From Caulobacter segnis (GTDB lineage Bacteria > Pseudomonadota > Alphaproteobacteria > Caulobacterales > Caulobacteraceae), in the NCBI RefSeq assembly GCF_023935105.1, contig NZ_CP096040.1, positions 3,348,001 to 3,412,000 of the forward strand: a DNA stretch of 64,000 nucleotides, read 5' to 3'. This document shows, piece by piece, positions 55,233 to 64,000 of the stretch (its first letter is position 1; every line of letters starts with the position of its first letter). The position numbers and the translations under genes are program-made. Below the pieces are notes generated by a model. The model saw nothing but the letters and a program-made list of their open reading frames with translations, was not told where the DNA came from and did no database searches.

Positions 55233-55865
55233 ATGCTCACCCAGACCGATGGCGTCTCCGCCGTCCCCCTCGTTGAAAGCGCCGCGGAACGGGCCCGCAA
55301 TCGTCGCCGGGCGCCGGTCCGTCGACTGCGCCTGGTCCTGGCCGTCTTCGCGATCGGCATCGGCGTGGCCGTGGTCGGCCAGGCCTCGCTGCGCAGCTTC
55401 GCCTCGAACAAGACCCAGACCCAGGCGGCCAACACGCCCCTGCTGCTGAACAAGCCGCGCTTCACCGGCGTGCTGAAGGATGGCCGCGCGTTCCTGATCA
55501 CCGCCGACAACGCCGAGCGCGACGCCAAGGACCAGAACCTGGTGCGCCTGACCACGCCCGTGCTGGTGCGCGGCTACGGCGCGCCCAATCCCAGCCAGGC
55601 GACGGCCAAGACGGGGATCTACCGCGAAGCCGAACACACGCTGCTGTTGACCGACGACGTGAAGATCACCAGCGCCGAGGGCTACGACTTCGACGCCCCC
55701 CGGGCCCTGATCGACATGCGCACGGGCGAGGTCAGCGGCGACTCCGGCATCGCGGGCAACGGCCCCAAGGGCAGCACCCAGGCCAACAGCTACAACGTCA
55801 CCGACAAGGGCGACCGCGTCGTGCTGAACGGCCGCGTCCGCACCCGGCTGGAGCGGCAGCGCTGA
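55233..55865 (+). CDS. LptC-like lipid-export protein (sphingolipid locus)
   Basis: 210-residue bitopic protein: an arginine-rich cytoplasmic leader, one TM (LRLVLAVFAIGIGVAVVGQ), then a periplasmic beta-jellyroll of the LptC type (FTGVLKDGRAFLITADNAER, YREAEHTLLLTDDVKITSAE and YDFDAPRALIDMRTGEVSGD, GDRVVLNGRVRTRLE). LptC belongs to the machine that pulls lipid A from the inner membrane. Here it heads a chain of close-packed genes (1-bp gaps or ATGA overlaps) leading to ceramide synthesis, so it may handle a sphingolipid. I recall reports implicating an LptC homologue in Caulobacter sphingolipid transport, not verified here. Confidence 0.85.
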   Translation: MLTQTDGVSAVPLVESAAERARNRRRAPVRRLRLVLAVFAIGIGVAVVGQASLRSFASNKTQTQAANTPLLLNKPRFTGVLKDGRAFLITADNAERDAKDQNLVRLTTPVLVRGYGAPNPSQATAKTGIYREAEHTLLLTDDVKITSAEGYDFDAPRALIDMRTGEVSGDSGIAGNGPKGSTQANSYNVTDKGDRVVLNGRVRTRLERQR

Positions 55866-55866
55866 C

Positions 55867-56994
55867 GTGGCCGCCGCCAAACGCGTCTGCTTCCTCTATA
55901 TCGCGCAACACCATCAGGTCTGGCACAGCCTGTCGGTGGCCGTCGCCATGGCTCGACGCTGGCCGGCCATCAAGGTCGAGATCGCCGCGACCACGCCTGA
56001 GCTGATCGACTATGTCGCCGGCCTGATCGCCGAGCTGGGCGGCGCGCCGATCACGCTGGTCCTGCTGCCTCCGGCCTGGCTGCGCCGCCTGGGTGGCGGC
56101 GGCGCTCCGCCCAAGACGCCGATGCTGATCGCCAACGCGCTGCGCCTGGCGCGTTACGACGCGGTGATCACACCCGAGCGGACCACCGCCCTGCTCCGTC
56201 GCATCGGCGTCCGCCATCCGCTGCTGGTCTACACCCAGCACGGCGCCGGCGACCGCGAGGGCCCGTTCGAGCCGCGCCTGAAGCTGTTCGACCTGGTCAT
56301 GGCCGCCGGCCGCAAGCAGCGCGACCGGATGCTGAGCGAGGGCTGGGTCACCGAAGAGACCTGCGCCATGGTCGGCTACCCCAAGTTCGATCTGGTCGAC
56401 GAGCTGCCGCCCCGGGCCCTGCCGCGCTTCGAGCGCCCGGGCCCTGTGGTGCTGTACAACCCCCACTTCCACGCCGAGCTCGGCTCCTGGCCCAAGTGGG
56501 GCAAGCAGGTGCTGGAGTTCTTCGCGGCCAACGACCGCTACAACCTGATCTTCGCCCCACACATCCGCCTGTTCGAAACCGCCACCATGGACGAACGCGC
56601 GGCCTTCAAGGTGTTCGCCGAGAACCCGCGCATCCATGTCGACCTGGGCGGGCCGGCGGCGGCGGACATGACCTATACCAAGGCCGCCGACCTCTATCTG
56701 GGCGACGTCTCCAGCCAGGTCTACGAGTTCCTGCGCACGCCCAAGCCGTGCCTCTTCCTCAACGCCAGCGGCGCCCGCTGGCGCGGCGATCCCAGCTTTC
56801 ACCACTGGCTCTACGGTCCGGTGCTGGAGACGGTCGAAGCGCTGGGCGAAGGGCTGGACGGCGCCTTCGCCACCCATGGTGACTATCGCGAAGCCCAGGC
56901 CCAGGGCATCGCCGAAACCTTCGACGTCAGCAACATCCCCGCCTCGGTGCGCGCGGCCCGCGCCATCGTCGACAAGTTGGAAAGCGCGGCATGA
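55867..56994 (+). CDS. CDP-glycerol glycerophosphotransferase-like protein
   Basis: 375-residue GT-B-type protein resembling the CDP-glycerol:poly(glycerophosphate) glycerophosphotransferase (TagB/TagF) group. Features are VYTQHGAGDREGPFEPRLKL (with a conserved HG), GYPKFDLVD, VVLYNPHFHAELGSWPKWGK and YTKAADLYLGDVSSQVYEFL, which parallels the family TDVSS motif. Gram-negative cells lack teichoic acid, so its acceptor is likely a lipid. In the sphingolipid locus it could build the phosphoglycerol or phosphoglycerate headgroup. The GTG at 55867 follows the LptC-like stop with one base; the 3-prime end overlaps the flippase gene. Confidence 0.82.
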   Translation: MAAAKRVCFLYIAQHHQVWHSLSVAVAMARRWPAIKVEIAATTPELIDYVAGLIAELGGAPITLVLLPPAWLRRLGGGGAPPKTPMLIANALRLARYDAVITPERTTALLRRIGVRHPLLVYTQHGAGDREGPFEPRLKLFDLVMAAGRKQRDRMLSEGWVTEETCAMVGYPKFDLVDELPPRALPRFERPGPVVLYNPHFHAELGSWPKWGKQVLEFFAANDRYNLIFAPHIRLFETATMDERAAFKVFAENPRIHVDLGGPAAADMTYTKAADLYLGDVSSQVYEFLRTPKPCLFLNASGARWRGDPSFHHWLYGPVLETVEALGEGLDGAFATHGDYREAQAQGIAETFDVSNIPASVRAARAIVDKLESAA

Positions 56995-58394
56995 GCGACG
57001 CCGCGCCGCCAGATCTCGCGCCCCCAGGGACCAAGCCCGTCTCGCCGCTCAAGAAGGTGCTGGCCAACGCCGGCCAACTGCTGAGCGGGCGCGTGGTCAA
57101 CGCGGTGGTGGGGCTGGCCTATATCGCCCTCACCTACCGCAGCCTGGGCAAGGAAGCCGCCGGCGTGCTGGTGCTGATCAACGCCTTCGCCCAGTTCCTG
57201 GGGGAGGCCGCGCACTTCCAGTCGTGGCAGACCCTGATCACCTATGGCGCCGCGCCGCTGCTGGACGACGACAAGCGCCGCTTCCAGCAGGTGCTGCGCC
57301 TGTCGATGCTTCTGGACCTGATCAGCGGCGTGCTGGGCGTGATCCTGGGCGTGCTGGGAGCCTGGTTCTTCTGGCAGGAGCTACGCTGGCCCGAGGGCAC
57401 GAACGGCTACGGCGCGCTGTACGCCCTGTCGATCGGCGTAATGACCTCGGCCACTGGCGTGGGCCTGCTGCGCCTGTTCGATCGCTTCCGTTTCCTGGCC
57501 GCCGAACAGGCGATCAGCTCGTTCGTGCGCATGGTCGGCTGCGCGATCTGCGCCTTCACCCACGCGCCCCTGCCCTATTTCCTGCTGGCCTGGGCGGCCG
57601 GGACCTTCGCCTCGTTCGCCTATATCGCCGCCATCGCCTTCTGGGACCTCAAGCGGCGCGGGTTGCTGCGGGGCTTCAGCCTGATCGGACCAACCAGCCA
57701 GGACCTGCCTGGCGTCTGGCGCTTCGCCCTGGCCACCAATTTCTCCGGCACGCTGGACGTCGGCTTCACCCACGTGCTGACCATGATCGTCGGCGCGATG
57801 CTGGGCCCGGCCCAGGCCGCCTCGTGGCGGATCGGCAAGCAAGTGGCCGACGGCATGGCCAAGCCCGCGCGGCTGATGGTGCCCGCCCTCTACCCCGAAC
57901 TGGCCAAGATGCGCGCCGCCGGCAGCCAGCAGGCGATGAACAAGCTGGCCGTTCAGATCGCCCTGATCGGCGGCGCGGCGGCCGGCGTCCTGCTGCTGGT
58001 CAGCCTTCTGGCGGGCTACTGGATCCTGGAAAAGGTTGTCGGTCCGGGGTATGGCGCGGCCGCCGGGGTGATGAACTGGCAGGTCGCCGCCGCCGCCATC
58101 GGGGTGATGACCCTGCCGCTCGAACCCATGCTCGTGTCGATGCGCGCGGCGGGATCGGCCTTGACCGTGCGCCTTGTCGTGGTCATCGCCTATCTCGCGG
58201 CCCTGGGACCGCTGATCAACACCTTCGGCCTGACCGGCGCGGGCGCCGCGCTGGTCGCGGCCGCTTTGGGAATGGGGATCGGCATGTATTTCATGGCGCG
58301 CCGCAGGCTCGCCCGACTCGCGGCGGAGGAAGACTCCGCGCGCACGACCAAAGACGATGAAGGCCCAAGTTATGATCACGCCCACGGCGTCTGA
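56991..58394 (+). CDS. Wzx/MATE-type lipid or glycan flippase
   Basis: 467-residue, about 12-14-span membrane protein of the oligosaccharyl-lipid flippase (MOP) superfamily. Examples of spans are GVLGVILGVLGAWFFWQEL, GVLLLVSLLAGYWILEKVV and VRLVVVIAYLAALGPLINTF, with polar loops as in Wzx proteins. The first visible helix is VVNAVVGLAYIALTYRSLGK. It lies between the transferase and the ligase with a 4-nt overlap upstream. The most natural reading is that it moves a sphingolipid or its headgroup intermediate across the inner membrane. Confidence 0.84.
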   Translation: MSDAAPPDLAPPGTKPVSPLKKVLANAGQLLSGRVVNAVVGLAYIALTYRSLGKEAAGVLVLINAFAQFLGEAAHFQSWQTLITYGAAPLLDDDKRRFQQVLRLSMLLDLISGVLGVILGVLGAWFFWQELRWPEGTNGYGALYALSIGVMTSATGVGLLRLFDRFRFLAAEQAISSFVRMVGCAICAFTHAPLPYFLLAWAAGTFASFAYIAAIAFWDLKRRGLLRGFSLIGPTSQDLPGVWRFALATNFSGTLDVGFTHVLTMIVGAMLGPAQAASWRIGKQVADGMAKPARLMVPALYPELAKMRAAGSQQAMNKLAVQIALIGGAAAGVLLLVSLLAGYWILEKVVGPGYGAAAGVMNWQVAAAAIGVMTLPLEPMLVSMRAAGSALTVRLVVVIAYLAALGPLINTFGLTGAGAALVAAALGMGIGMYFMARRRLARLAAEEDSARTTKDDEGPSYDHAHGV

Positions 58395-60087
58395 CCGCAC
58401 CGTTCGGTTCGCCGACTTCCCGACCCTGACCCAGGCCCTCGACTTCGCCGCGACAGGCGAGACGGGGATCAACCTCTATTCGCTGCGCGGCGAGCTGGTC
58501 GAGGCCATCTCCTACGCCAAGCTGCGCGAGGACGCCCAGGTGCTGGCCCGCCGCCTGCTGGCCACGGGGGCCAAGGTCGGCGACAGCGTGGCCCTGCTGG
58601 CCGAGACCGACGGCGACTTCGTCCGCGCCTTCTTCGCCTGCCAGTACGCGGGCCTCTTGCCCGCGCCGCTGGCCCTGCCGACCCCGCTGGGCGGCCGTGC
58701 GGCCTATATCGAGCAGATCAAGAACCTGACCACCTCGGCCAAGGCCAGAATTCTGATCGGCCCCGTGGGCCTCAAGGACTGGGTGGCCGAGATCGGCGAG
58801 GCCGCGGGCCTGGACTTCGCCGGCGTCCTGGCCGACCTGCCGGAAGACGCCAATGAAAATGGCGGCGCGGCCCTGCCGGCCATCGCGCCGGAAAGCCCCT
58901 GTTACCTGCAGTTCTCGTCGGGCAGCACCCGCACGCCGACGGGCGTCCTCGTTTTGCACAAGGCCCTGATGGCCAACTGCGTGGCGATCACGCGCGACGG
59001 CCTGCAGGTCGTGCCCAGCGACCGCGCCATCTCGTGGCTGCCGCTCTATCACGACATGGGCCTGATCGGCTTCCTGCTGGCCCCGCTGAGCTGCCAGATG
59101 TCGGTCGACCTGCTGCCCACCGGCGCCTTCGTCCGCCGCCCGCTGCTGTGGATCGACCTGATCTCGCGCAACAAGGCCACCACCGCCTACAGCCCCACCT
59201 TCGGCTACGAGCTTTGCGCCCGCCGGGTTCAGGGCCAGTCGCTCGAGAGCTACGATCTCAGCCACTGGCGCCAGGCCGGCCTGGGCGGCGACATGATCCG
59301 CATGCCGCCGCTGAAGGCCTTCGTCGAGGCGTTCGGCCCGGCCGGCTTCTCGGACAAGGCCTTCGTGGCCAGCTACGGCATGGCCGAGGCGACCCTGGCC
59401 CTCTCCATGGCCCCGCTGGGCAAGGGTCTGCGGGCCGAGACCCTGGACGTCGAGCGCCTGGAGCGTGACAATCTGGCCGTCGATGCGCCTGAAGGTTCGG
59501 ACCGCGCCCGCGACTTCGCCCGCTGCGGCCCGGCCCTGCCCCACCACTTCCTCGACGTGCGCGACGAGAGCGGCGCCGTCCTGCCCGAGCGCGGCGTCGG
59601 CCGCATCTTCGCTAAGGGCCCCTCGGTGATGAGCGGCTATTTCGCCAATCCGGAAGAGACGGCCCGCGTGCTGTCGGCCGACGGCTGGCTGGACACCGGC
59701 GACATCGGCTTCAAGATCGAGGGCGAGATCGTCATCACCGGCCGCGCCAAGGATCTGATCATCCTGAACGGCCGCAACATCTGGCCGCAAGACCTTGAAT
59801 GGACGGCGGATCACGAGATCGACGGCCTGCGTAGCGGCGACGTCTGCGCCTTCGCCATCCCCGCCGAGCCGGAAGACCAGATCGTGGTCCTGGTCCAGGC
59901 GCGCGGCGGCGACGCCGACAGCCGCGCGGCCTTGGTCGAGCAGGTCACCACCCTGCTGCGCACCCGCCACGGGGTCGAGGCCAAGGTCAAGCTGGTGGGC
60001 GCCCACGCCCTGCCGCAGACCTCGTCCGGCAAGCTGAGCCGTTCGAAGGCCAAGACCGCCTATCTGGCCGGGACCTATGGCGACTAG
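58372..60087 (+). CDS. Fatty acyl-AMP ligase (acyl-CoA/ACP synthetase) for ceramide
   Basis: 571-residue ANL-superfamily enzyme. Motifs: LQFSSGSTRTPTGVLVLHKA (P-loop), SWLPLYHDMGLIGFLLAPLS (DMG region), YGMAEATLALS, WLDTGDIGFKIEGEIVITGR and the Lys in SSGKLSRSKAK. The overall pattern is of the fatty acyl-AMP ligase (FAAL) subgroup, which loads acyl groups on a carrier protein. It is followed by the cerR-like gene and a dedicated ACP, so it likely primes the ACP for serine palmitoyltransferase. The ATG at 58372 is chosen for GAAGG ahead of it; ATG 58357 is possible. Confidence 0.9.
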   Translation: MITPTASDRTVRFADFPTLTQALDFAATGETGINLYSLRGELVEAISYAKLREDAQVLARRLLATGAKVGDSVALLAETDGDFVRAFFACQYAGLLPAPLALPTPLGGRAAYIEQIKNLTTSAKARILIGPVGLKDWVAEIGEAAGLDFAGVLADLPEDANENGGAALPAIAPESPCYLQFSSGSTRTPTGVLVLHKALMANCVAITRDGLQVVPSDRAISWLPLYHDMGLIGFLLAPLSCQMSVDLLPTGAFVRRPLLWIDLISRNKATTAYSPTFGYELCARRVQGQSLESYDLSHWRQAGLGGDMIRMPPLKAFVEAFGPAGFSDKAFVASYGMAEATLALSMAPLGKGLRAETLDVERLERDNLAVDAPEGSDRARDFARCGPALPHHFLDVRDESGAVLPERGVGRIFAKGPSVMSGYFANPEETARVLSADGWLDTGDIGFKIEGEIVITGRAKDLIILNGRNIWPQDLEWTADHEIDGLRSGDVCAFAIPAEPEDQIVVLVQARGGDADSRAALVEQVTTLLRTRHGVEAKVKLVGAHALPQTSSGKLSRSKAKTAYLAGTYGD

Positions 60088-61024
60088 ACGGATCGTCGCG
60101 GTCACCGGGGCGACGGGCTTCCTGGGTCGTCATCTGGTCCAGGCCCTGGCCCGGGACGGCTGGACGCCCCGCGTCCTGGTGCGCCGCGATCCGATCCATC
60201 CCCTCTGGCGCGACCTCGAGGTCGAGGTCGTCACGGGCGATCTGAAGACCCCGGGCGCGCTGGACCGTCTCTGCGGGGGCGCGGAGGTCGTCGTCCATGT
60301 GGCCGGCCTGATCAAGGCCGCCTCACTCGAGGGCTTCAACGCCGTCAACCGTGACGGCGCCCGCGCCGCCGCCCTGGCCGCCAAGGCTTCCGAAGCGCGC
60401 TTCATCCTGGTCTCCAGCCTCGCCGCCCGCGAGCCGGCGCTCTCGAACTACGCCACCAGCAAGCGCGCCGGCGAGGACGCAACGCGCGAGGCTTTTCCCG
60501 AGGCGCTGATCGTGCGGCCGCCGGCCATCTATGGCCCCGGCGACACCGAAACCCTGGCCTTGTTCGAACTGGCGGCAAAAAGCCCGATTCTGCCCGTACT
60601 TTCCCCGGACGCGCGGGTCGCTATGATCCACGTCCATGACGCAGCAGCTCAGCTTGCGAACTTGTGCAAAAACCCTGTTTCGGGTCTGGTAGAGTTATCT
60701 GATGTGCGGCGCGACGGTTACACTTGGACGGAAATCATGAGCGCCGCTGGCGCGACCATGGGCGCGAAGCCGCGCCTAGTAAGGCTTCCGGACGGCGTCC
60801 TGACACTGGCCGGAACCCTAGCGGACGCTTGGTCTTTGGCCTCCCGAACCCCCCTGGTGTTCGGTTCAGGCAAGGCCAGGGAGTTGCTTCACGCGAATTG
60901 GTCACTATCTAGCGCTCCGATGTCGGAGGGAGTACCCAGCGTGTTCGGCTTGATCGACGGGTTCGCACATACCGTCGATTGGTATCGGACACAGGGTTGG
61001 TTGCCCAAAAATATCGGCGCCTAG
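60077..61024 (+). CDS. cerR: 3-ketosphinganine/ceramide reductase (CerR-like NAD epimerase fold)
   Basis: 315-residue SDR/epimerase-fold oxidoreductase. The NAD-binding motif is VTGATGFLGRHLVQALA, the catalytic YxxxK is YATSKRAG, and a conserved VRPPAIYGPGD follows. In Caulobacter, CerR (gene order spt-acp-cerR-acyl ligase) reduces the keto group of the sphingoid intermediate. The present gene overlaps the ligase gene and stands before acp and spt, matching that order. Its symbol is assigned by synteny and fold. Confidence 0.88.
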   Translation: MATRRIVAVTGATGFLGRHLVQALARDGWTPRVLVRRDPIHPLWRDLEVEVVTGDLKTPGALDRLCGGAEVVVHVAGLIKAASLEGFNAVNRDGARAAALAAKASEARFILVSSLAAREPALSNYATSKRAGEDATREAFPEALIVRPPAIYGPGDTETLALFELAAKSPILPVLSPDARVAMIHVHDAAAQLANLCKNPVSGLVELSDVRRDGYTWTEIMSAAGATMGAKPRLVRLPDGVLTLAGTLADAWSLASRTPLVFGSGKARELLHANWSLSSAPMSEGVPSVFGLIDGFAHTVDWYRTQGWLPKNIGA

Positions 61025-61048
61025 TTTGAATATGGCGGAAATCTGACA

Positions 61049-61053
61049 GACTC
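61049..61053. promoter_or_regulatory. GANTC site upstream of the ACP gene
   Basis: GACTC lies in the 78-bp gap between cerR and acp, 50 bp before the acp start. An internal promoter here would allow separate acp-spt expression. One site can occur by chance. Confidence 0.3.
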
Positions 61054-61102
61054 GCCGTTACAGTAGTGTCACGGGTGGGGCTCCCCGGAGGTTTGATTTA
61101 GA

Positions 61103-61354
61103 ATGGATACGGTGACGGATCTCAGCTTGCGCGAGATCGGGGTGGCTGCGAGCAAGGTTCTGGGACGGCCTGTAGAGGTGCGTTCCGAGTCGCATATCGG
61201 CCGTGACCTCGCCGTGGACTCCCTTGCCCTCATGAACATCATCATGGAGCTCGAAGACACCTTCGACATCTCCATACCACTCGATCGCCTCGCTTCCGTC
61301 GAAACCGTGGGCGACCTTTCCAAACTGATCAACGATCTCCGGACTAGGGCTTAA
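61103..61354 (+). CDS. Dedicated acyl carrier protein for sphingolipid synthesis
   Basis: 83-residue ACP. The phosphopantetheine attachment serine is about residue 40 in AVDSLALMNIIMELED, followed by the typical FDISIPLDRL helix. Acidic overall with a basic end. It is placed directly before spt (3-bp gap), as in Caulobacter where an ACP is needed for serine palmitoyltransferase. GGAGG lies about 12 nt upstream of the ATG, a long spacing. Confidence 0.93.
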   Translation: MDTVTDLSLREIGVAASKVLGRPVEVRSESHIGRDLAVDSLALMNIIMELEDTFDISIPLDRLASVETVGDLSKLINDLRTRA

Positions 61355-61357
61355 CTA

Positions 61358-62572
61358 ATGGGGCTGTTTGATAAGCACCTGGCCTATCGCGATGCGTACA
61401 AGGCCATCCAAGACGCCGGCGCCGACCCCTTCAAGGTTCGCTTCGACGCCGTGACCTCGCCGACCGAAGGCGTCGTGGAGGGTCGCCCGACCATCCTGCT
61501 GGGCACCAACAACTATCTGGGCCTGACCTTCGACGAAGAGGCCATCGCCGCCTCCGTCAAAGCCGTGCAGGAACGTGGCACCGGCACCACCGGTTCCCGC
61601 ATCGCCAACGGCTCGTTCGAGGCTCACGTCGAGCTCGAACAGGAGCTGGCCAAGTTCTACGGCCGCAAGCACGCTATGGTCTTCACGACCGGCTACCAGG
61701 CCAATCTGGGCGTGCTGTCGACCCTGGTCGGTCGCGGCGACCACCTGATCCTCGACGCCGACAGCCACGCCTCGATCTACGACGGCTCGCGTCTCGGCCA
61801 CGCCGAAGTCATCCGCTTCCGCCACAACGACCCCGAAGACCTGGCCAAGCGCCTGCGCCGCCTGGGCGACGCGCCCGGTGAGCGCCTGATCGTGGTCGAA
61901 GGCGTCTATTCGATGATCGGCGACGTCGCGCCGCTGAAGGAAATCGCCGCCGTGAAGCGCGAGCTGGGCGGCTACCTGCTGGTCGACGAGGCCCACTCGA
62001 TGGGCGTCCTGGGCGCCACGGGCCGCGGCCTGGCCGAAGCGGCCGGCGTGGAAGACGACGTCGACTTCATCGTCGGCACCTTCTCCAAGAGCCTGGGCGC
62101 CATCGGCGGCTTCTGCGTCTCGAACCTGGACGACTTCGACGTCATGCGCGTCGTCTGCCGCCCCTACATGTTCACCGCCTCGCTGCCGCCGGCTGTGGTC
62201 GCCTCGACCATCACTGCCCTGCGTCGCATGATCGAGCAGCCGCAGCTGCGCGACCGCCTGAACCGCAACGCCAAGCGCCTGTACGACGGCCTGACGGCCA
62301 TGGGCTTCCACACCGGCCCGACGGCCAGCCCGGTGGTCGCCACGACCATCCCGGACCAGGAACGCGCCATCGCCATGTGGAACGGCCTGCTGCAGGCCGG
62401 CGTCTACCTGAACCTGGCCCTGCCGCCCGCCACGCCCGACAGCCGTCCGCTGCTGCGCGCCAGCGTCAGCGCCGCTCACACCGACGAGCAGATCGACGCC
62501 GTCCTGGGCGCCTTCGCCGAAATCGGCGCGGCCCTGGGCGTGATCGAGCCGCTCAAGCGCGCCCGCGCCTGA
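61358..62572 (+). CDS. spt: Serine palmitoyltransferase
   Basis: 404-residue PLP enzyme of the alpha-oxoamine synthase family that condenses serine with an acyl thioester, the first step of sphingolipid synthesis. Motifs: ILLGTNNYLGLTFDEEA, GTGTTGSRIANGSFEAHVEL, DADSHASIYDGSRLG (His at about 137 stacks on PLP), DEAHSMGVLGATGRG, and the PLP-lysine in GTFSKSLGAIGG (K244). Distinguishing it from AONS or KBL relies on the adjacent ACP, ligase and cerR genes. It has an intrinsic terminator behind it. Confidence 0.95.
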   Translation: MGLFDKHLAYRDAYKAIQDAGADPFKVRFDAVTSPTEGVVEGRPTILLGTNNYLGLTFDEEAIAASVKAVQERGTGTTGSRIANGSFEAHVELEQELAKFYGRKHAMVFTTGYQANLGVLSTLVGRGDHLILDADSHASIYDGSRLGHAEVIRFRHNDPEDLAKRLRRLGDAPGERLIVVEGVYSMIGDVAPLKEIAAVKRELGGYLLVDEAHSMGVLGATGRGLAEAAGVEDDVDFIVGTFSKSLGAIGGFCVSNLDDFDVMRVVCRPYMFTASLPPAVVASTITALRRMIEQPQLRDRLNRNAKRLYDGLTAMGFHTGPTASPVVATTIPDQERAIAMWNGLLQAGVYLNLALPPATPDSRPLLRASVSAAHTDEQIDAVLGAFAEIGAALGVIEPLKRARA

Positions 62573-62596
62573 TAGCGCTCACTTTTCTGAACGAAG

Positions 62597-62624
62597 ACGC
62601 CCGGGCTCATCGCCCGGGCGTTTT
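62597..62624 (+). terminator. Intrinsic terminator after spt
   Basis: A 10-bp stem (62597-62606 with 62612-62621) with 5-nt loop is followed by TTTT. It ends the sphingolipid operon and lies just beyond the convergent cpgC-like stop, so it may serve both. Confidence 0.88.
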
Positions 62625-62645
62625 GGTTTGTCCGATCCTCGCCCT

Positions 62646-63533
62646 CTAGGGGGAGGATTGTCGGCGCCGGTTCTTCCAGACCTTCAGCAGCACCGCCGGA
62701 GCCGACAGGATCGGGTGCCGCTCGCGCCAGGGCGTGACCTCGACCGGCACGCCGGTATGACGCTCGATCTTCCAGGCCGCGTAGCGGGACGCGCCCTGGA
62801 AGGTGAAGGCCGCCTTCATCAGGCGCGCCACGTTCAGCGGCTTGCCCAGCAGCCTGCGCACGCTCCAGGCCTTCTTCAGACGGGCTCGCTCTTCCTCGGT
62901 CATGGCCCCGCCCTCGTCGGCCTGGACGGCCTCCATGACGTGGTCGTAGCGCAGCGGGTCGAAGGTCAGGATCGAGACCTCCCTGCCCGCCTTCTCGACG
63001 CGCAGTTCAGCCTTGTAGGTCTCGCGGAACAGCGCCGTCCACAGGGCGTGCGGCGAGCCCCTGACGGGGCCCAGGGCGATGGCGAAGCGGCCCGCCGTGC
63101 GGCAGGCGTCGGTGACGGCGTCGATCACCGCCTGACGCGCGTCCCGGTCGGCCCAGATGAGCGCGCAGGGCTGGACGAAACGAGCCCAGATGGTGGTGTC
63201 CTTGGTCGTCCCGGCGGCGGCGCGTTCGAACTGGCCCAGCGTCATCGAGGCGACCTTGGCCCGCAGGGTCCGCCCCTCGTGCGTCATCTCGTGATAGCTG
63301 ACGTCCGGCCACAGGATCCGCGTGAAGAATCCCCGCCAGCCGGCCGGCGGCCGTTCGGTCAGCACGTAATAGTCCAGCACCCCCGACAGATCGCCGGTGC
63401 GCAGGATCGAGCCATAGAACAGGACGGCCCGCGCGCTTGGAAAGACCGTCGTCAGGTGCTCGGCGAAGGCGGTGATCGGCGCGGGGGTCGACGTGGACAG
63501 CTCGGCCGCGACCAGGTCGCGCAGGCGGCTCAT
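62646..63533 (-). CDS. cpgC: CpgC-like protein (ceramide-phosphoglycerate synthesis)
   Basis: 295-residue protein without a signal peptide. The N-terminal part holds AVLFYGSILRTGDLSGVLDY, which fits a nucleotidyltransferase-fold GS...D site, and the rest (TYKAELRVEKAGREVSILTF, WKIERHTGVPVEVTPW) is not recognised. Its start overlaps the ceramide-kinase-like stop (ATGA), and the locus position next to spt matches the Caulobacter cpg genes, which make ceramide phosphoglycerate. The symbol rests on synteny, not on a verified alignment. Confidence 0.72.
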   Translation of the reverse strand: MSRLRDLVAAELSTSTPAPITAFAEHLTTVFPSARAVLFYGSILRTGDLSGVLDYYVLTERPPAGWRGFFTRILWPDVSYHEMTHEGRTLRAKVASMTLGQFERAAAGTTKDTTIWARFVQPCALIWADRDARQAVIDAVTDACRTAGRFAIALGPVRGSPHALWTALFRETYKAELRVEKAGREVSILTFDPLRYDHVMEAVQADEGGAMTEEERARLKKAWSVRRLLGKPLNVARLMKAAFTFQGASRYAAWKIERHTGVPVEVTPWRERHPILSAPAVLLKVWKNRRRQSSP

Positions 63534-64000
63534 CCGACCAGGAACCTCAGGGCCGGCCCGAGACCGATCGTCAGCTCGCCGCCCTCGAACACCTCGCCGT
63601 CCAGGACGAACGGCGCGCCGCCGTCCAGGCCAACGACGTTGGGATCGCGCCGGCGATAGCCCAGGCCTTCGAGCTGGGGCTCGGCCTTGCCGCTCAGGAC
63701 CAGAGGCAGAGCTTTCAGCAGCCGCCGGGGCGGCGCGTCGACGTCCAGGATCTTCAACCCCTCGCGCGGCGGGCCGAACGGCTTGAGGCCGAACGGCAGA
63801 CGCTTCAGCGCCGTGGCCACGATCGCGAAGCGCTCCTCGCCCGGCTGGGCCTCGCCGTCGAAGGTCAGCCTGGCCGGGACGCCTTCGCGCCACTCGTCGC
63901 GGGTTCCGCCGAACAGCGCCCCCAGGGTGGCGGTGGCGATCGTCACGCCGACAGCCAGATTGTGGAAGAAGCCGACCTTGTGGACCTTCTGGGACAGGTT
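63530..64000 (-). CDS. cpgB: Ceramide kinase/DAGK-like protein, C-terminal part
   Basis: The last 156 codons of a gene that enters from beyond the right edge. The residues KVGFFHNLAVGVTIATATLG, DEWREGVPARLTFDGEAQPG, ERFAIVATALKRLPFGLKPF and the end LTIGLGPALRFLVG fit the C-terminal domain of diacylglycerol/sphingoid/ceramide-kinase-type proteins (all-beta region with FAIVATALKRLPFG). The Caulobacter cpgB gene encodes such a kinase and lies here in the spt locus. The N-terminal catalytic domain is outside the window, so the symbol is provisional. Confidence 0.72.
   Translation of the reverse strand, partial: NLSQKVHKVGFFHNLAVGVTIATATLGALFGGTRDEWREGVPARLTFDGEAQPGEERFAIVATALKRLPFGLKPFGPPREGLKILDVDAPPRRLLKALPLVLSGKAEPQLEGLGYRRRDPNVVGLDGGAPFVLDGEVFEGGELTIGLGPALRFLVG

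Follow-up and report, generated by a model that had tools for sequence, protein, structure and literature searches.

A TagF-like transferase candidate beside flippase and Lpt-type genes in the sphingolipid cluster of Caulobacter segnis

The 64-kb stretch of the Caulobacter segnis genome analyzed here (hereafter the window; G000:C1:3348001-3412000 in a genome of 5.69 Mb) ends in the leading (5') half of a sphingolipid gene cluster already published for Caulobacter, CC_1168-CC_1152. Beyond what is in print, sequence comparison and a structural model suggest that the second gene of this block (55867-56994, plus strand), the counterpart of C. crescentus CC_1167, encodes a TagF-like protein that belongs to the sphingolipid pathway. 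A dismissed gene thereby returns as a TagF-like candidate whose prospective donor has just been identified. In the wider reading, which we favor with moderate confidence, ceramide synthesis would be followed by addition of a phosphoglycerate-type headgroup, flipping and hand-over to an Lpt-type exporter.

For C. crescentus, PMC11324152 describes a 17-gene region and proposes sphingolipid transport through CC_1168 (LptC2), CC_1166 (flippase) and CC_1156/CC_1155 (LptF2/LptG2); it judges CC_1167 and CC_1157 probably unrelated and reports for CC_1167 a cofitness of 0.57 with spt, the serine palmitoyltransferase (SPT) gene, and of 0.54 with CC_1159. PMC13001222 names CCNA_01210-01226 the 'sphingolipid biosynthesis and export cluster', and two papers of 2024 (PMC11087976, PMC11324152) describe the path of sphingolipids over the inner membrane and on to the outer one as unknown. 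Our literature search, which did not extend to supplements and subscription papers, found no published function proposal for CC_1167/CCNA_01225. A sequence-only reading of this DNA had proposed that the three leading genes of the block supply missing steps, namely headgroup completion, flipping and hand-over to an Lpt-like bridge. The general idea was right and mostly published already: because PMC11324152 proposes both the flippase and LptC2 steps, two of the three are known proposals.

Fold and family of the CC_1167-type protein

Because neither this protein nor the flippase encoded next to it reaches a Pfam cut-off, profile and fold evidence was needed to label both. The putative transferase scored 13.3 bits against PF04464 (Glyphos_transf), under the Pfam cut-off of 22.1, and two homologues that are 34% and 39% identical to it exceeded that cut-off with 27.6 and 26.2 bits. 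Glyphos_transf was matched by 18 of 42 family members at E 0.01, and no other Pfam family was matched by any of them. When the family profile was run against the sequences of solved structures it found seven, the best being the TagF-like Cps3D (E 0.003); TarL followed at E 0.27, a value bettered by an unrelated chance match at E 0.026, and there was no sugar transferase among the seven. Profile-profile alignment of the family with three clear PF04464-type proteins by hhalign gave a probability of 96.4% (E 1.3e-9).

The hhalign alignment paired H125-G126, H232 and D280/S282/S283 of the window protein with the HG, HP and DYSS motifs of PF04464. The HG, H and DxSS residues, which in TagF we take to serve catalysis and donor binding, were present in 81/81 transferase sequences; the invariance of HG and DxSS is partly by construction, because the scan that supplied the loci selected them with two peptide patterns, one of HGAGDR type and one of DVSSQ type. 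Protein Data Bank titles among the structural matches name the variants H444N in TagF and H300N in TarL.

The AlphaFold model of the transferase, a protein of GT-B-type fold, has a predicted local distance difference test (pLDDT) score of 92.6. Its best structural match was TagF (3l7k; Z 24.2, 322/375 residues aligned, 3.6 A), followed by the capsule enzyme 8a0c (Z 23.7) and TarL (Z 22.9). Fold comparison also admits a different enzyme, a nucleoside diphosphate-sugar transferase or epimerase-like protein that would decorate the sphingolipid or another envelope lipid. UDP-GlcNAc 2-epimerases reach Z ~22.5, within ~2 Z units behind TagF, a closeness that counts against our assignment; by Foldseek alone the top ranks go to UDP-sugar glycosyltransferases and epimerases, with TagF in 14th place; and phosphate-starved C. 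crescentus produces glycosphingolipids (PMC6445935). The tie between the folds is broken by the profiles, which point to the TagF type: both Cps3D and TarL, and no sugar enzyme of the transferase kind, are among the structures found, and the Pfam evidence is solely for Glyphos_transf. The published glycosphingolipid transferases Sgt1 and Sgt2 are presumably genes other than CC_1167. We therefore consider a sugar-transferase or epimerase function improbable. By predicted fold and by profile the CC_1167-type protein is TagF/TarL-like, as the sequence-only reading had called it (TagB/TagF-like) and contrary to PMC11324152, which set CC_1167 aside.

Distribution and neighbors of the transferase

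Transferase homologues are rare, being found in 9/110 genomes of the order and 3/172 of a class-wide sample, with our own genome counted in both. Among the 110 genomes, 33 carry SPT at E<=1e-100 (SPT+); the transferase was present in 9/33 SPT+ and 0/77 SPT- genomes. As three class-wide matches are too few for statistics, a scan of named genomes was used instead. It returned at least 562 relatives, of which the best 80 loci, those selected by the two peptide patterns, were kept for neighbor counts, so that remoter relatives lie outside them. Genomes recur (stretch L025 is the same as L100, and G261:C32 the same as L041), and for this reason the 80 loci cannot be counted as independent of the order sample.

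Pathway-specific neighbors were found at 46 of these best 80 loci, and at least two such neighbors at 42/80. The count leaves out matches to CerR, AasR, haloacid dehalogenase (HAD) phosphatase, aspartyl/asparaginyl beta-hydroxylase, HIT and DUF2141 proteins, as well as SPT matches below 45% identity. The CpgB query was a stop-to-stop reading with extra front residues, and separate CpgB counts were not used; genes of the low-GC locus L027 were read by hand. As a check we took 10 stretches of our own genome, most of them chosen for their paralogues and not random loci, and it picked up those paralogues. Once the 23 loci with Caulobacter (22) or Caulobacterales (L033) in their title are set aside, 23/57 had a specific neighbor. 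The flippase is among the neighbors at 41/80. At four of the 46 linked loci there is a single specific neighbor: in L082 a flippase that is 35% identical and ~7 kb away, and in L102, L104 and L108 a CC_1153-like gene.

On the tree the linked loci are spread over seven or more named families, and their gene order varies. The transferase precedes the flippase in Caulobacter and follows it in Azospirillum, Oleisolibacter, Belnapia and Siccirubricoccus. In Marinicaulis (L100) and in L026 its neighbors are a CC_1153-like nucleotidyltransferase, a HAD phosphatase and the flippase, and in L027 it shares one region with HAD, flippase, CC_1153-like, ceramide-synthase-like, LptF2/G2 and SPT genes. The gammaproteobacterium Arhodomonas (L105) carries it inside such a sphingolipid cluster, and in Erythrobacteraceae a CC_1153-like gene is its sole specific neighbor. 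An SPT search of 41 genomes holding 45 transferase loci was positive in 41/41, against a background of 23/172 class genomes. In all, SPT was found for 78/80 loci, 34 of them within the locus and 44 more by genome search; of the 35 loci outside that search, 33 have SPT in the locus and the other two are L038 and L101. Both the second SPT of our own genome (58% identical) and a 48% copy in L027 pass the NF047599 model; the other SPT matches were called by E-value.

Several observations weigh against a role of this gene in the sphingolipid pathway. The transferase is lacking in 24/33 SPT+ genomes of the order, and 34/80 loci have no specific neighbor in the DNA examined. On the tree 7 gains or losses suffice for the linked label, compared with 26.2 on average after shuffling, so strong a clustering by lineage that the linked loci are not 46 independent events; Fisher tests on the SPT contingency likewise ignore shared ancestry. 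In genome G091 a transferase is present while SPT is absent at E<=1e-90. Two genomes of another genus, g157 (L022/L115 and L023/L116), carry homologues of cpgA, cpgB, cpgC, cpgD, CC_1153, CC_1158 and lptF2/G2, a gene set of the type that makes the lipid CPG2, and neither the transferase nor LptC2 was found in them. PMC11324152 reports three beta/gamma species entirely without CC_1166-1168. Since the g157 genomes and these three species do without some or all of them, none of CC_1166-1168 is universally needed.

Taken furthest, such points, together with the verdict of PMC11324152, would make CC_1167 a passenger, a gene kept in an inherited Caulobacter neighborhood and unrelated to sphingolipids. 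This is opposed by linkage in other gene orders in Azospirillaceae, Roseomonadaceae, Parvularculaceae and one gammaproteobacterium, by the link in Erythrobacteraceae through the CC_1153-like neighbor, by the presence of SPT for nearly all loci and by the published cofitness (PMC11324152), and we regard it as very unlikely. It is instead likely that the TagF-like protein acts on a sphingolipid. Headgroup completion, as the sequence-only reading had assigned it, is supported in part: the two g157 genomes have a full CPG2-type set and no CC_1167.

Two stronger versions were tried and rejected. The g157 genomes exclude the transferase as a need of every CPG2-type gene set. They also have the flippase without transferase and LptC2, and in Azospirillum, Belnapia and L025/L026 the flippase lies near a transferase without LptC2; the three leading genes are thus not an inseparable unit.

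Some neighbors of the transferase genes deserve mention in their own right. A HAD phosphatase gene lies between the flippase and transferase genes at L025:10591-11304, L026:6733-7638 and L027:7868-8593 (PF12710 in L025 and L027, assigned by similarity in L026); its product is a sequence-based candidate replacement for the CC_1158-type phosphoesterase, which was not found in these three stretches. After the transferase of L027 comes an aspartyl/asparaginyl beta-hydroxylase-type gene (PF05118; L027:5635-6450). The same family includes the LpxO-type lipid hydroxylases, and by analogy the L027 product may hydroxylate the sphingolipid. G212, a genome of the same genus as the window, has a second transferase paralogue (L024:8924-10156, on G212:C2) beside a gene that by eye is glycosyltransferase-like; apart from a weak match to a CerR-like short-chain dehydrogenase/reductase (SDR), no sphingolipid cluster gene was found in the 20 kb read around it.

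The flippase and the Lpt-type export parts

The third gene (56991-58394, plus strand; CC_1166 counterpart) overlaps the transferase gene by 4 bp and encodes a predicted MOP-superfamily, Wzx-like flippase. Its model (pLDDT 86.7) matched the lipid III flippase WzxE (9g9n) with Z 31.8 over 405/467 residues at 3.6 A, and also human MATE1 (Z 31.0) and MurJ (Z 27.9). The window protein itself has no Pfam family over cut-off and no Polysacc_synt match at E 1 or 0.01; PF01943 was found in 15/21 family members scanned. At E<=1e-20 the flippase occurs in 23/33 SPT+ and 0/77 SPT- genomes of the order, and in 18 of those 23 genomes it lies within 15 kb of SPT. The 10/33 SPT+ genomes with no match are evidence on the other side.

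The first gene (55233-55865, plus strand; CC_1168 counterpart) encodes LptC2, a second LptC-like protein, with 79.1 bits against PF06835 (cut-off 21) and 41.7 against TIGR04409 (cut-off 38); its start codon at 55233 is as in the sequence-only reading. It is 41% identical to the other LptC of the genome (L114:3804-4424), which adjoins a gene that by eye is LptA-like and an LptB gene. LptC2 stands outside this lptC-lptA-lptB row, among the sphingolipid genes. Two LptC loci were detected in 5/110 genomes (G000, G212, G236, G261 and G271), all of the window's genus, a count from which a very divergent copy could be missing. In three other genomes a second LptC stretch lies within ~1 kb of the first, two of the three being below cut-off. 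LptC2 was present at 28/80 transferase loci. All of these belong to Caulobacterales, judged by their titles or, for the one whose title says only 'bacterium', by its position on the tree. LptC2 as the core of the exporter was rejected, given the second LptC locus in so few genomes of the order and its non-detection in the g157 and L055/L056 clusters. It would rather be a lineage-specific addition.

Past the window end, and so out of sight of the sequence-only reading, lies the lptF2/lptG2 pair, which among the export parts follows spt most closely. Four or more LptF/G copies were found in 32/110 genomes of the order: 31/33 SPT+ (G174 and G205 being the two without) and 1/77 SPT- (G175). Of all parts, LptF2/LptG2 and the flippase follow ceramide synthesis most closely. 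Co-occurrence of the three leading genes with spt held for the transferase and the flippase; LptC2 did not follow spt widely, and G091, with its transferase, is a counter-example.

Could the flippase and LptC2 work instead on a different polymer of the envelope, such as O-antigen or exopolysaccharide, and be placed here by chance? The nearest solved fold, a lipid III flippase, would fit such a role. The absence of the flippase from all SPT- genomes, its closeness to SPT and the duplication of LptF/G in nearly all SPT+ genomes argue against it, and we consider this extremely unlikely. That the flippase belongs to the sphingolipid pathway is, in our view, highly probable, and Lpt-type export of the sphingolipid is probable.

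In the window genome a single LptB scores over its family cut-off, and a single LptD was found. From this we infer that LptF2-LptG2 must use the shared LptB, a prediction for the sphingolipid exporter that comes from genome comparison. LptG2 at L009:14776-15837 (G000:C1:3416776-3417837), as well as in L022, L023, L067, L123 and L124, has Ala in place of the Glu of an SE(L/V)xAMRxxG motif. This Glu is kept in LptG-type sequences of Azospirillum, Belnapia, Siccirubricoccus and Aureimonas, in the LptG1-type copies L135-L137 and in the LptF2 copies. The helix with this motif is the putative element that, we assume, couples LptG to LptB.

The window genome also holds a third LptF-like gene (L113:6803-8005; G000:C1:3184803-3186005), with 208.5 bits against PF03739 and 45% identity to LptF2. 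It has no adjoining LptG partner and lies beside a gene that by eye is glycosyltransferase-like and whose start resembles that of the gene just after cpgD. G212 has five LptF/G copies as well.

The cluster, the proposed pathway and known systems

In the open reading frame analysis seven plus-strand genes span 55233-62572 with successive gaps of 1, -4, -38, -11, 78 and 3 bp. The 1-bp gap separates LptC2 from the transferase gene, which has a GTG start, and the largest spacing, 78 bp, comes just before the acyl carrier protein gene. Following the flippase are the genes for AasR, a fatty acyl-AMP ligase/acyl-ACP synthetase at the CC_1165 position (58357-60087; NF006624 887.7 bits, cut-off 600), whose 38-bp overlap with the flippase gene holds if the ATG at 58357 is the start; CerR, the SDR-type ceramide reductase (60077-61024, overlapping by 11 bp; PF01370, of epimerase/SDR fold, 64 bits), assigned by synteny and by 76% identity in a C. 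vibrioides strain (L036); AcpR, the dedicated acyl carrier protein (61103-61354; PF00550, PP-binding, 45 bits, cut-off 20.8); and Spt (61358-62572, after a 3-bp gap; NF047599 685 bits, passing the equivalog cut-off of 500).

A minus-strand pair follows spt. The CpgC-like gene (62646-63530; CC_1161 counterpart) was assigned by synteny and 77% identity in L036, with its function from PMC11324152, and its protein had no match in the Pfam or NCBIfam scan. The CpgB-like ceramide kinase gene (63530-64000; CC_1160 counterpart, function from PMC12275187) is cut by the window end and continues in the adjoining stretch L009 with a GGDGT motif; it has an 84% identical relative in L037, and its protein, scanned as the cut piece alone, had no Pfam match. 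The gene block that the sequence-only reading had described is thus confirmed, with its order, a close spacing of mostly overlaps or 1-3 bp gaps with the one wider exception, and the convergent cpgC- and cpgB-like genes after spt.

L009 holds the rest of cpgB, a CDP-alcohol phosphotransferase at the cpgA position and a metallophosphoesterase at the CC_1158 position, and further downstream a DUF2141 gene, a gene that by eye is HIT-like, lptF2, lptG2, a gene of the ceramide synthase (bCerS) type, CC_1153 and cpgD. Here bCerS and the exact CC numbers were assigned by position and relatives. The HIT-like gene (L009:13125-13562; the CC_1157 position, set aside in print) and the DUF2141 gene (L009:12553-13101) recur in clusters of other families, for example Azospirillum and Belnapia. 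Elsewhere in the genome is the second SPT (L112:8715-9935; G000:C1:724715-725935), which scores 627 bits against the NF047599 cut-off of 500; no other cluster homologue was found within the 18 kb read around it.

In the proposed pathway, ceramide is made, almost certainly, by the published enzymes AasR, AcpR, Spt, CerR and bCerS, all required for ceramide in C. crescentus according to the printed accounts. These also hold that CpgC is needed for CPG (PMC11324152), that CpgB phosphorylates ceramide (PMC12275187) and that CPG2 needs CpgA and CpgD. On the inner face the sphingolipid headgroup would then receive an alcohol phosphate from the TagF-like protein, whose CDP-activated donor might be CDP-glycerate and whose acceptor might be C1P, CPG or CPG2. 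It would be a natural user of a CDP-activated donor because it stands in the same gene run as ceramide synthesis and CDP-glycerate, which is the product of CpgD (PMC12275187), should be cytoplasmic. CDP-glycerate itself as the donor is a tentative choice that we are inclined to doubt. The Wzx-like protein would bring a sphingolipid through the inner membrane; LptF2-LptG2, paired with the shared LptB and joined by LptC2 in genomes that have it, would extract it; and the lipid would pass on to the shared LptA/LptD bridge. The reported location of CerR in the periplasm (PMC11087976) fits badly with cytoplasmic headgroup completion followed by flipping and export. As CerR is reported there and CpgB and CpgD need nucleotides, the substrate of the flippase may be the ketone precursor, the finished lipid or both.

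A narrower alternative is that the TagF-like protein itself makes CPG2 from CPG and CDP-glycerate, alone or with CpgA. It would suit the TagF-like fold and motifs, the synthesis of CDP-glycerate by CpgD, for which PMC12275187 draws a TagD-TagF parallel, and the cofitness of CC_1167 with CC_1159 (0.54; PMC11324152). PMC12275187 assigns the transfer from CDP-glycerate to CpgA on genetic evidence and leaves CpgA activity to future work. The protein at the CpgA position is by family a CDP-alcohol phosphotransferase (PF01066, 38.3 bits) and CpgA is needed for CPG2 in print, and at the gene level there are sets with cpgA, cpgD and CC_1153 and no transferase. We judge this alternative distinctly improbable. 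The enzyme of this transfer has genetic support in print, and CC_1167, in our preferred reading a TagF-like protein acting on sphingolipid, is a further candidate.

A bolder scheme, speculative and on balance unlikely, would place CC_1167-type proteins on a branch of their own, new to the TagF superfamily, which lengthens ceramide phosphoglycerates by more phosphoglycerate units drawn from the CDP-glycerate of CpgD, giving teichoic-like poly(phosphoglycerate) sphingolipids that undergo Wzx-like flipping and export by a hybrid LptB2-LptF2-LptG2(-LptC2) machine. If true, a Gram-negative outer membrane would contain a teichoic-like lipid able to support life without lipopolysaccharide (LPS). Whatever its cargo, the export route bears on LPS dispensability in Caulobacter, because survival without LPS depends partly on CPG2 (PMC12275187). 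The cluster was known, and its transfer and export steps are now directly testable.

Compared with known systems, the cluster matches C. crescentus CC_1168-CC_1152 in genes, order and orientation, the window corresponding to CC_1168-CC_1160 and L009 to CC_1159-CC_1152; CC numbers were matched through the gene list of PMC11324152 and the C. vibrioides strain. In that strain the first eight window genes are in the same order and 76-95% identical, and cpgB was not resolved as a separate match. The DUF2141 gene sits in the cluster of the window genome and was not detected in L036. The printed account excludes CC_1167 and CC_1157 from the pathway (PMC11324152), whereas CC_1167-like genes retain sphingolipid neighbors in several families. 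With the LPS transport system LptB2FGC-A-DE the cluster shares LptC2, LptF2 and LptG2, which match its families over nearly the whole profile, but neither LptB, at its cut-off, nor LptD was found in a second copy. The flippase shares a near whole-length fold with WzxE, MurJ and MATE proteins, a fold that gives no substrate, and unlike that group with its glycan loci it has ceramide synthesis as its genomic partner. Like TagF, TarL and Cps3D, the putative transferase has a predicted TagF-type fold over its whole length with the HG, H and DxSS motifs aligned; it differs in having 'NPHF' for 'PT(F/W)R' and 'DVSS' for 'DYSS', and whereas TagF and TarL belong to teichoic acid or capsule loci, it is encoded in a Gram-negative sphingolipid cluster.

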